A DNA stretch of 30,490 nucleotides, taken from positions 1 to 30,490 of the IMG/VR virus record IMGVR_UViG_3300049825_000707. The stretch is one strand, 5' to 3'. Source of the stretch: a virus. The notes beneath the pieces were generated by a model. The model made no database searches, was not told the origin of the DNA, and saw only the letters and a list, made by a program, of their open reading frames with translations. Position numbers and translations under genes: made by a program. Below, piece by piece: positions 1-28,960 of this stretch. Every line of letters begins with the position of its first letter. The stretch's first letter is position 1.

Positions 1-293
1 ACGCGTGGGTCACCGGCGACGCGGTGGTCACCGACAACGCGTGGGTCACCGGGCACGCGTTGGTCGACGGCAACGCGTGGGTCACCGGCAACGCGAGGGT
101 CGACGGCAACGCGTGGGTCACCGGCGACGCGAGGGTCAGTGGCCGCGCGCGGGTCACCGGGCACGCGGGGGTCACCAGCAACGCGGTGGTCACCGGCGAC
201 GCGCAGGTCACCGGCAACGCGAGGGTCGACGGCAACGCGTGGGTCGGCGGTAACGCGGTGGTCACCGGCGACAACGAGAAGAGGGACAAATGA
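1..293 (+). CDS. hexapeptide-repeat (left-handed beta-helix) protein, 3' end only
   Basis: This is the C-terminal end of a gene that starts before the window; the frame is open from base 3. What is visible is fifteen consecutive six-residue repeats of the form V-T/D-G-N/D-A-x (for example [12 protein letters not shown]), followed by a short charged tail (KRDK) and a stop. A hydrophobic residue every sixth position with a small Ala four residues later is the signature of left-handed parallel beta-helices. Similar repeats occur in phage proteins of unknown role and in acyltransferases, but no catalytic part is visible here. The stop codon overlaps the start of the ribonucleotide reductase gene (ATGA at 290-293), so the two are probably co-translated. 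The function is unknown; a structural or scaffold role is inference. Confidence 0.75.
9..278 (+). repeat. fifteen 18-bp tandem repeats encoding hexapeptides
   Basis: The units are degenerate around GTCACCGGCAACGCGTGG, with the first codon GTC/GTG and the fifth GCG nearly constant. The 18-bp period equals six codons, and variation falls mainly at codons 2, 4 and 6. The repeat is therefore under protein-level constraint and is not a non-coding satellite. High identity between units makes the tract prone to slippage and copy-number change. Confidence 0.85.
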
Positions 294-26250: not shown

Positions 26251-26682
26251 TTACTCCGAGTCTGCGATAGTGTAATGCCTCGGGGCCGAGGATTCATATT
26301 GCTTCCTCAGCCTCTCCATGAGCCCCTCTTGTTCCGCGTAGATTGGCCTCACACTGACACTGGGAGGCCTGTCATCTATGAGCTTTCCCGCCGCCTGAGC
26401 ATCCATCAGAATAGCCATACAGGCCATGATGTTGGCTCGGTGGTCTGTGCCGTCTAGGGGGTCCACTTCCTCTCCACTGAGGTAAGCGTCTAGGTGCCGT
26501 TGTGCTGCGGACAGGTAGACACTCGAACGTACCCCTGCTGCGCGCCAATTCCAAGCTCCGTACTTGATCATACCGGAGAATTGGGCTAGCGCCCATTTGG
26601 CTTTTGCTATAGGGGACAGAAGCCAAAGGGGTATCTTAGTGCCAGCTACTGCATCTTTTGGGTTGGTGTCTTTTCCTATCAC
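26251..26682 (-). CDS. DUF5664 protein (dATP/dGTP diphosphohydrolase N-terminal-domain type)
   Basis: The 143-residue product contains the conserved GKDTNPKDAVAGTKIPLWLL, then AQFSGMIKYGAWNWRAAGV, SSVYLSAAQRHLDAYLSGEE, DGTDHRANIMACMAILMDAQ. This is the DUF5664 family, to which MazZ of Vibrio phage phiVC8 (dGTP/dATP to dNMP plus pyrophosphate) is related. Many phages without base modification also carry it. The GTG at 26680-26682 with AAGGGA upstream is taken as the start because it leaves 13 bases after the polymerase stop. The longer open frame would overlap the polymerase by 131 bases and has a different composition. Confidence 0.8.
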   Translation of the reverse strand: MIGKDTNPKDAVAGTKIPLWLLSPIAKAKWALAQFSGMIKYGAWNWRAAGVRSSVYLSAAQRHLDAYLSGEEVDPLDGTDHRANIMACMAILMDAQAAGKLIDDRPPSVSVRPIYAEQEGLMERLRKQYESSAPRHYTIADSE

Positions 26683-26695
26683 TGGGACTTCCCTT

Positions 26696-27613
26696 TCAGA
26701 CGTGAGAACCACATAGCCAAACCCCCGAGAGTCTGCGATTGGCCCGTTTAGAGCAATTTTCGGCTGCGCATAAAACGCCTTCCCAAGGTACCAAACGATC
26801 TTGCTCATCGAAACAGGCCTCGGCATTCTTGCTCCAATACCGCATCAGAAGAGGAGGGGCTTTTCCCTTCACGTCCGTCAGATACTTGTCCGCCCCCACC
26901 ACCATCAGCCTCTCCAAGGCCTTGGCCACGTCGTGCGCCCGGGGGTCGTCAGGAACCTCCAGAATCAATTCATCGTGGATCATGTTGACGATCCTAGAGC
27001 CCAACATCACGGGCTCCTTCTGCCCGATGTAGCACGCTTTGGAAACCAACCATGTGGCCTCTTTAGCGACCGCCGCCCCGAGGCTTTGAAAGCCGTCGTT
27101 GCACCCATTGGTGTACTGCACGCCCCCTCTGACTCTCCCCGTGAAGGGGTCCACGAGAGTGCAAGTCCCCTCCGGGGTACTCGTCAGGGTTGCAATCCGA
27201 TCGAAGTAGAGGGCCAATTCAGGCCAGCGGCGAAGCCATGCAGCCTTGATTTTCTGCGCGAGCGCCATCGTGGCGCCCTCAATACCCGCTTGCACTAACG
27301 CCGCTAGAAATCTCTTGGCCCCCATCCCCCCGGGCAGACCGAAGTTTGCAATTTTGGCCAGCTGCCGGGCGCCATCAAACTCTTTATCGTTTTTGTCCTT
27401 TCTTCGTTTGCGCCCCTGCTCCGGGGCTATTCCAAGAATCTCGGATGCGAGTTCCGTATGGGGGTCTAGGCCCTCGTTGAGGACATCCCCTAAGACGGAA
27501 TACCCATAAAGGCGGAAGCACACTTGCGCCAGTGTGTGCAACTCCAGTTGCTCGTAGTCCGCCTGGGCATATACATACCCCTTCCGGGGTGTGAAACACT
27601 CTCGGACATTCAT
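26696..27613 (-). CDS. family A DNA polymerase, C-terminal (palm/fingers) half of a split enzyme
   Basis: The 305-residue product begins MNVRECFTPRKGYVYA and contains the three catalytic motifs: motif A with D19 (QADYEQLELHTLAQV), motif B with R83, K87 and N90-F-G (RQLAKIANFGLPGGMG), and motif C H213-D214-E215. It lacks exonuclease and thumb, which are in the gene at 27905-28960. The two halves together total 656 residues, a normal length for phage family A enzymes. The C-terminus has an added C282-x4-C287 … C301-x2-H304 zinc-knuckle-like segment. Its ATG overlaps the DUF6197 stop (27610-27613), so it is translated by coupling to the inserted gene. Confidence 0.9.
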   Translation of the reverse strand: MNVRECFTPRKGYVYAQADYEQLELHTLAQVCFRLYGYSVLGDVLNEGLDPHTELASEILGIAPEQGRKRRKDKNDKEFDGARQLAKIANFGLPGGMGAKRFLAALVQAGIEGATMALAQKIKAAWLRRWPELALYFDRIATLTSTPEGTCTLVDPFTGRVRGGVQYTNGCNDGFQSLGAAVAKEATWLVSKACYIGQKEPVMLGSRIVNMIHDELILEVPDDPRAHDVAKALERLMVVGADKYLTDVKGKAPPLLMRYWSKNAEACFDEQDRLVPWEGVLCAAENCSKRANRRLSGVWLCGSHV

Positions 27614-27903
27614 TTCTTGATTGCTCTCTCAAAAATCTCTAGGACGACCTTGAGTCCTTGGGTGTCATTGACCTGAGGGATATCCTGACAAACTTTAGCA
27701 AGCAGGCCAAAAGCCTTGTTGACTGCATCCGACCCTCCGGCCACTCTATAGATAGCCCCTGCCGCACACCAACGCACAGCACGGGAGGATAGACAATTTA
27801 CAGGACGCCCTTGCTCGTCACGTGCTAATTCTCCCTGAGTCCACCTTGTAGGGTTTTCAATCAACGCTCGAGCTTCCATCAACACCTGACTGCCCGTTTT
27901 CAT
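27610..27903 (-). CDS. DUF6197-like small protein inserted between the polymerase halves
   Basis: A 97-residue protein has an MKTGSQVLMEARALIENP start, TRWTQGELARDEQGRPVNCL and RWCAAGAIYRVAGGSDA. The 'W-x-Q-G … A-x-D-x-x-G … W-C-x-x-G-A' pattern matches DUF6197, a family of unknown function seen in phages and actinobacteria. The ATG at 27901-27903 has AAGGAG 8 bases upstream, lying inside the end of the polymerase N-terminal gene, and starts one base after that gene's TAA. It shows no intein, intron or homing-endonuclease motif. Its insertion at this exact place is unexplained. Confidence 0.75.
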   Translation of the reverse strand: MKTGSQVLMEARALIENPTRWTQGELARDEQGRPVNCLSSRAVRWCAAGAIYRVAGGSDAVNKAFGLLAKVCQDIPQVNDTQGLKVVLEIFERAIKK

Positions 27904-27904
27904 C

Positions 27905-28960
27905 TTACGCACTCCTTGAAAAATTCTGAACGTTAGGGGACGAACTAGTGACTCTGTCTGATTCCGCAAACCCGAAACGGGTGTGGATAGGGGCCACTGT
28001 GCCCTCACGGAGTAATTTCACATCCTTGTTCAGAAGGGCCTTCAGAGTAACGTACTCTGCGTAATCGTTCAGGAGATCGTCGTCTACCCGATCGCAAGCC
28101 TCCGAATCCAGAGAGATGCCTCCCGCAGGCGTGCGAAGAACAAGAAGTCCTTTTTGCGCACACACCTCGGCCATGTAGGCCGCCACCCTCTTCATATCCC
28201 GAGTCCCCGCGGGTCTGACGAAACCTGCCTCCTTCAGGCGAGCCTCCAGGACATCCACAGCCCGGACAGTCTGCGTCTCTAGCGCAGACACCTTAGCAGC
28301 ATCTGTACGAAGCCCCCAGACGGAGGCCAAGTGCAGGGCCAGATACGCCCGAGTCTCCCGGAACTGACTCGACAAAAGATCTACACCATGCTCTGCAATA
28401 GCCAGCCTATTCAACTCTTCTTGGGCCTCGTAAACATCCAAGGTGTGCACAGCGTCGTCTTTAGCGTATCTCACGTGATCTTCCGACCATTGGGATATGG
28501 GCACCCCCCGAAGAGGTCCGTAGGTAGTACGAGGCCCCCCCTTCTTACCCCAGAGAACTCGGCCAAGGTGGCGATGTGCCAGGTCCGCGAGACCGTAGTT
28601 GACTTTCGTGACTTTTCCGTCTGGAGCAGTGCGAAACCTGTAGCGGCCGCACGCCGTGTCGATGAGAATCTCTCTCCACATCGTGTCCGTGACCCTGTCC
28701 GCGTCGTAAGCCTCGAACCACAGAGGGAGAAGGCTCGGCCACTCAGCGCAAGTGACCGCTACGTCGTAAGCTACGTGATGCCCTACAATACGGATTTCAG
28801 GGTCTCTCAGCCAGCTTTCCAGCTCCGGAAGAAGGTCCGTGTGCAAAGCCAGTTGAGGTTCCTTTTCAGAAAACCTCCACTGACCGCACACAATCTCGGG
28901 GGCCATGACACCAGGGCGAAAAAGTTGTGTTTCCGTGTCAAAAGCTACCACTCTCATCAT
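27905..28960 (-). CDS. family A DNA polymerase, N-terminal (3'-5' exonuclease and thumb) half of a split enzyme
   Basis: The 351-residue product has the DEDDy proofreading exonuclease motifs: Exo I D8/E10 (VAFDTETQ), Exo II H61-H-x-x-x-D66 (VGHHVAYDV) and Exo III Y165-x-x-x-D169 (RYAKDDA). A thumb-like region follows (about 200-310). The end is the first part of the polymerase domain, R336-V-T-S-S-S-P-N-V-Q-N346, equivalent to the 'RLSSSDPNLQN' segment of Pol I. It stops five residues later at 27905, just where motif A should follow; motif A begins the other half. Two adjacent ATGs are possible starts; GAGG 5 bases before the first supports it. Its start overlaps the dCMP deaminase stop. Confidence 0.9.
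   Translation of the reverse strand: MMRVVAFDTETQLFRPGVMAPEIVCGQWRFSEKEPQLALHTDLLPELESWLRDPEIRIVGHHVAYDVAVTCAEWPSLLPLWFEAYDADRVTDTMWREILIDTACGRYRFRTAPDGKVTKVNYGLADLAHRHLGRVLWGKKGGPRTTYGPLRGVPISQWSEDHVRYAKDDAVHTLDVYEAQEELNRLAIAEHGVDLLSSQFRETRAYLALHLASVWGLRTDAAKVSALETQTVRAVDVLEARLKEAGFVRPAGTRDMKRVAAYMAEVCAQKGLLVLRTPAGGISLDSEACDRVDDDLLNDYAEYVTLKALLNKDVKLLREGTVAPIHTRFGFAESDRVTSSSPNVQNFSRSA

Follow-up and report, generated by a model that had tools for sequence, protein, structure and literature searches.

Phages in which an essential replication gene lies in pieces have been described before. In phage Aeh1 (nrdA/mobE) and in phage 25 (gene 43A/43B), the pieces form active enzymes after a split by a homing endonuclease (PMC2988022). 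In the OM43 phages MEP401 and MEP402, a family A DNA polymerase is interrupted immediately ahead of motif A, and the junction holds a small ORF that does not encode a nuclease (PMC10580990). A sequence-only reading of the locus studied here had named as precedents split polymerases that often lie next to a homing endonuclease; that list has to be corrected, since the split of a family A polymerase around a non-nuclease ORF was already published. We analyzed a 30,490-nucleotide stretch of viral DNA (IMG/VR record IMGVR_UViG_3300049825_000707), referred to here as the window. It carries a family A polymerase that is split at a hot-spot loop and has a non-nuclease gene, probably a passenger, in the junction. 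The small-ORF split is known from MEP401 and MEP402, and what is new is a split at this loop with a DUF6197 gene in the junction.

The window shares with Aeh1 and phage 25 an essential replication gene in pieces, but the enzymes concerned there are a ribonucleotide reductase and a family B polymerase, and the endonuclease present in those phages is absent from the window. In MEP401 and MEP402, as in the window, the cut directly precedes motif A and neighboring genes lie 1 base apart or overlap; their N half ends ...QNFDGEIKTLFLSRYGE and a stop, followed by a 77-aa uncharacterized ORF and then by MILNADAKALE. Unlike the window, they belong to another polymerase clade (Zobellviridae), their break lies about 12 residues later, and their 77-aa insert is unrelated. 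In Alcaligenes phage QDWS535 the polymerase halves abut directly, and those of MW202697 flank an R67-DHFR-like gene. In MW202796 (L033, MW202796.1) about 3.6 kb separates the OM43-type halves, and this interval holds several genes, among them one for a cytosine methyltransferase; such a separation is hard to explain unless the halves work in trans.

The three genes of the window lie at 26696-28960, with the coordinates and ORFs given in the sequence-only reading (Table 1). PolA-N ends ...SSSPNVQNFSRSA (QNFSRSA, then the stop) and PolA-C begins MNVRECFTPRKGYVYAQADYEQLEL.... The AAGGAG ribosome-binding site belonging to the DUF6197 gene sits within the last codons of PolA-N, and the spacing from the PolA-N stop to the DUF6197 start is 1 base. 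The ATGA overlap of DUF6197 with PolA-C suggests translational coupling, so the coupled layout with a separate ribosome-binding site for the insert was found as the sequence-only reading had described it.

Table 1. Genes and junctions of the split polymerase locus in the window
Feature	Coordinates	Strand	Description
PolA-N	27905..28960	-	351 aa; DEDDy 3'-5' exonuclease, thumb, first part of the palm
DUF6197 gene	27610..27903	-	97 aa; ATG at 27903, stop at 27610
PolA-C	26696..27613	-	305 aa; remaining palm and fingers; motifs A, B, and C; Cys-rich tail
Junction 1	27901..27920	-	AAGGAG, PolA-N stop, one base, DUF6197 start (sequence)
Junction 2	27610..27613	-	ATGA: DUF6197 stop overlaps PolA-C start (sequence)

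Across the three genes, Pfam gave matches to PF01612 (E = 1.7e-7), PF19698 (E = 5.5e-13), and PF00476 (E = 6e-18). In the PHROG family phrog_17, PolA-N matched positions 669-988 and PolA-C matched positions 996-1209, which are consecutive. In an alignment with 27 unsplit relatives, PolA-N kept the exonuclease residues D8, E10, D66, Y165, and D169, and PolA-C kept the polymerase residues D19, E24, R83, K87, F91, and H213-D214-E215. The two halves together thus have the 3'-5' exonuclease and motifs A (D, E), B (R, K, F), and C (HDE) of a family A DNA polymerase, and the claim that all catalytic motifs and start signals are intact held for both genes.

We located the break on the intact polymerase of a relative, L057. 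The last residue of PolA-N corresponds to L057 residue 410 and the first residue of PolA-C to residue 411, which are consecutive, so that nothing was lost at the break. The junction was likewise gap free against more than 20 intact relatives, bearing out the earlier impression that almost no residues were missing and that the cut fell just before motif A. The two ORFs therefore cover the intact protein without loss while the relatives have one ORF, as in genes-in-pieces enzymes. At this place the intact relatives have QNxxR or a similar motif, a loop whose length ranges from 2 to about 40 residues, and then G-V/I-RECF; the window has QNFSRSA, a stop, and then M-NVRECF. In an AlphaFold2 model of intact L057 (pLDDT 87.7, pTM 0.85), residues 407-413 form a coil that contains the break, and the motif A strand comprises residues 425-431. 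By sequence alignment the break falls at approximately residues 683-688 of E. coli Pol I (numbering counted by hand), in a coil of variable length that follows the QN motif and precedes the motif A strand. Intact relatives carry insertions at this very position, of 3 residues (L062), 9 residues (L106), and about 30 Cys-rich residues (L104), which indicates that the loop is permissive.

Scanning viral contigs with PolA-N or PolA-C as a single protein did not find the sister of the window, and a two-sequence profile that included MW202816 did not recover the family either. A three-sequence family profile that included G002 (L087, IMGVR_UViG_3300027857_000027) yielded 44 viral loci; 3 new contigs came from two additional scans. 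Two of the 46 related viral contigs, L054 and G002, also have a split polymerase. Nearly all of the related loci with both parts identified were single ORFs, with seven having no recognized N match in that test. Scans of a genome collection gave nothing at first and 24 loci the second time, and among these 24 loci all of the Myxococcus polymerases with both N and C matches were unsplit. The polymerase of MW202816.1 (UOF82274.1) belongs to the same family and is about 30% identical in both halves, but it is an intact single protein of 729 aa without a DUF6197 match. We dropped phrog_2573 as a candidate family of C halves because intact polymerases match it too. A different phage polA, in L002, is interrupted by a GIY-YIG endonuclease gene after motif A, which is another site.

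The closest relative of the window is L054 (IMGVR_UViG_3300050821_015552, 79.8 kb), 52% identical in PolA-C and 45% identical in PolA-N. Its polymerase has coupled halves and is cut at the same point as that of the window, but in place of DUF6197 it has a 199-aa ORF that overlaps both polymerase halves, and its PolA-C lacks the Cys-rich tail. By its family matches, to phrog_3322 endonuclease (E = 6.7e-36) and phrog_1035 endonuclease VII (E = 2.6e-23), the 199-aa ORF is endonuclease-VII/HNH-like. The window and L054 were sisters in trees of the concatenated halves (UFBoot 98) and of PolA-C alone (UFBoot 99), and the intact L106 branched next to the pair (UFBoot 100). In the tree of the N half alone the three grouped together (96), yet L106 and L054 paired first. 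The break in the G002 polymerase comes about 10 residues later, and its two genes overlap by ATGA with nothing inserted; the protein was placed among intact proteins elsewhere in the tree, and its split therefore looks independent.

The insert of the window belongs to DUF6197 (PF19698; 49.6 bits against a cutoff of 24.6) and retains the conserved columns of the family. Its AlphaFold2 model is a compact helical domain (pLDDT 96.9), and fold searches returned only uncharacterized phage proteins and no convincing PDB match. As the sequence-only reading had stated, the insert lacks a nuclease motif: DUF6197 was the only family that it matched. The window itself thereby lacks the junction endonuclease that defines a gene split by a homing endonuclease, and its junction showed no trace of a former one. 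Among 10 contigs tested, DUF6197 was present in the window only. Free-standing copies, away from polymerases, occur in Mx1, pf16, BUCT-ZZ01, and others, and L113 has a copy that precedes an unsplit polA-type ORF by about 0.9 kb. In the unrelated phages Mx1 and BUCT-ZZ01 (L099, L102), DUF6197 lies beside NAD-salvage genes (nicotinamide phosphoribosyltransferase, NadM), and BUCT-ZZ01 has three tandem copies. The earlier hint of a particular link between DUF6197 and the split found no support, given the endonuclease at this place in L054, the lack of an insert in G002, and the solitary copies in unrelated phages. GC3 was 0.47 in the window DUF6197 gene versus 0.60 and 0.67 in the polymerase halves, and 0.68 in the L054 endonuclease gene versus 0.86 and 0.80 in its polymerase halves. 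The low GC3 of both inserts would fit a later arrival, although the deaminase gene of the window is equally low (0.50). The DUF6197 gene probably entered a split that was already old, as a passenger and not as a part of the polymerase.

Several features of the polymerase family and of the neighboring genes were also observed. In helix O, the IYG of Pol I is replaced throughout the family by PGG or a similar sequence; the residue equivalent to Tyr766 is Gly, and once Ala, in the window and all of the family members examined, with Tyr found only in two outgroups. Tyr766 is a known fidelity residue, so its replacement may mean that fidelity is unusual in this polymerase family. The Cys-rich tail that distinguishes the window PolA-C from that of L054 (26696..26790; CAAENCSKRANRRLSGVWLCGSH) resembles a small zinc-binding motif, and G002 has a Cys-rich tail too, but a different one. 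The gene directly downstream of PolA-C (26826..26251) encodes a dATP/dGTP diphosphohydrolase N-terminal domain (PF18909, E = 5.6e-24), which is present in 4 of 15 relatives. This neighbor raised the idea of a diaminopurine (Z-genome) polymerase, which we rejected because a search of the window and the 15 relatives, many of them possibly fragments, gave no PurZ-type gene. An open-ended ORF at 3..293, just before a class II ribonucleotide reductase gene, consists of VTGxAxVxGNA repeats that match a beta-solenoid repeat (PF18836).

The two halves look functional, judging from their normal evolutionary rate, their conserved active sites, and their stability through deep divergence. The root-to-tip length of the window in the tree was 4.07, within the 3.40 to 4.48 of intact family members. 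Differences between the window and L054 at the first, second, and third codon positions were 0.41, 0.32, and 0.68 in PolA-N and 0.39, 0.32, and 0.64 in PolA-C; third positions were thus far more divergent than second positions, which together with the normal branch length points to purifying selection on both genes. The halves might still be decaying remnants in a phage replicated by another polymerase, which could lie outside the window, an incomplete contig of 30 kb. We consider this very unlikely: every catalytic residue is kept, the branch length and codon-position pattern are normal, the starts and the coupling are intact, and the split is also kept in L054, only 52% identical, with no second PF00476 gene found in the L054 contig (79.8 kb) or the G002 contig (46 kb). 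On the kept residues, branch length, and codon pattern, a functional two-subunit layout, as the sequence-only reading proposed, appears likelier than decay. That the halves yield one polypeptide, by RNA splicing, an intein, or programmed frameshifting, would suit their shared reading frame and the T run at the end of PolA-N. The 291 nt between the halves, though, are filled with DUF6197 coding sequence, leaving no room for an intron, and hold 7 stops in the frame common to PolA-N and PolA-C, which makes splicing or read-through very unlikely. There was no Rfam match at the gathering threshold and there were no tRNA genes, which speaks against an intron of group I or II; Pfam found DUF6197 alone in the insert and no intein family; and by eye there was no canonical slippery heptamer for a return shift into PolA-C. 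A single polypeptide is thus extremely improbable.

Other readings concern the part played by DUF6197. It could itself have split an intact polA, with the endonuclease gene of L054 having entered this permissive loop independently. The loop is indeed a hot spot. Splits close to it arose separately in G002 and in the OM43-type phages, the chance that three breaks placed at random would all lie within 20 aa of one another is only about 0.3%, and intact relatives bear insertions there. The window and L054, however, are sisters with a common break point, so that one split is simpler, and we regard a split by DUF6197 as unlikely. Tight coupling in one operon would give cotranslation, as might suit a functional third subunit or an assembly factor that helps the halves join, but L054 and G002 are also split and both lack DUF6197, and free-standing copies in Mx1, pf16, and BUCT-ZZ01, as well as the L113 copy near an unsplit polA-type ORF, make such a role highly doubtful. 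We hold just as little confidence in a family A polymerase of three parts in which DUF6197 would bind to the palm loop where the chain is broken and would assemble or regulate the enzyme.

We therefore favor, as the probable history, a two-subunit family A polymerase split by a homing-type endonuclease and later occupied by a DUF6197 passenger that replaced the endonuclease. The window and L054 probably inherited the split from their common ancestor. A homing-type endonuclease gene would have split the polymerase gene, an order of events suggested by one comparison, with L054, the only relative that has an endonuclease at the site. The halves would have kept working in trans, and on the branch leading to the window the DUF6197 gene would have taken the place of the endonuclease. 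PolA-N and PolA-C would be made from one coupled mRNA, with the palm completed by both chains, and they most likely associate noncovalently into one active enzyme. By analogy, the window may be likened to the homing-endonuclease genes-in-pieces enzymes, with the junction endonuclease found in its sister L054 only.

At least three phage lineages have cut their family A polymerase within about 20 residues before motif A, and the genes in the gap differ by lineage: an endonuclease, DUF6197, an R67-DHFR-like gene, uncharacterized ORFs, or nothing. Repeated cuts before motif A with differing gap genes point to one place in the palm that permits working as two chains. They also suggest a route by which a selfish endonuclease leaves a lasting slot for passenger genes. 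These polymerases can serve as natural templates for designing split Pol I enzymes, and the reassembly of split polymerases becomes a directly testable question.
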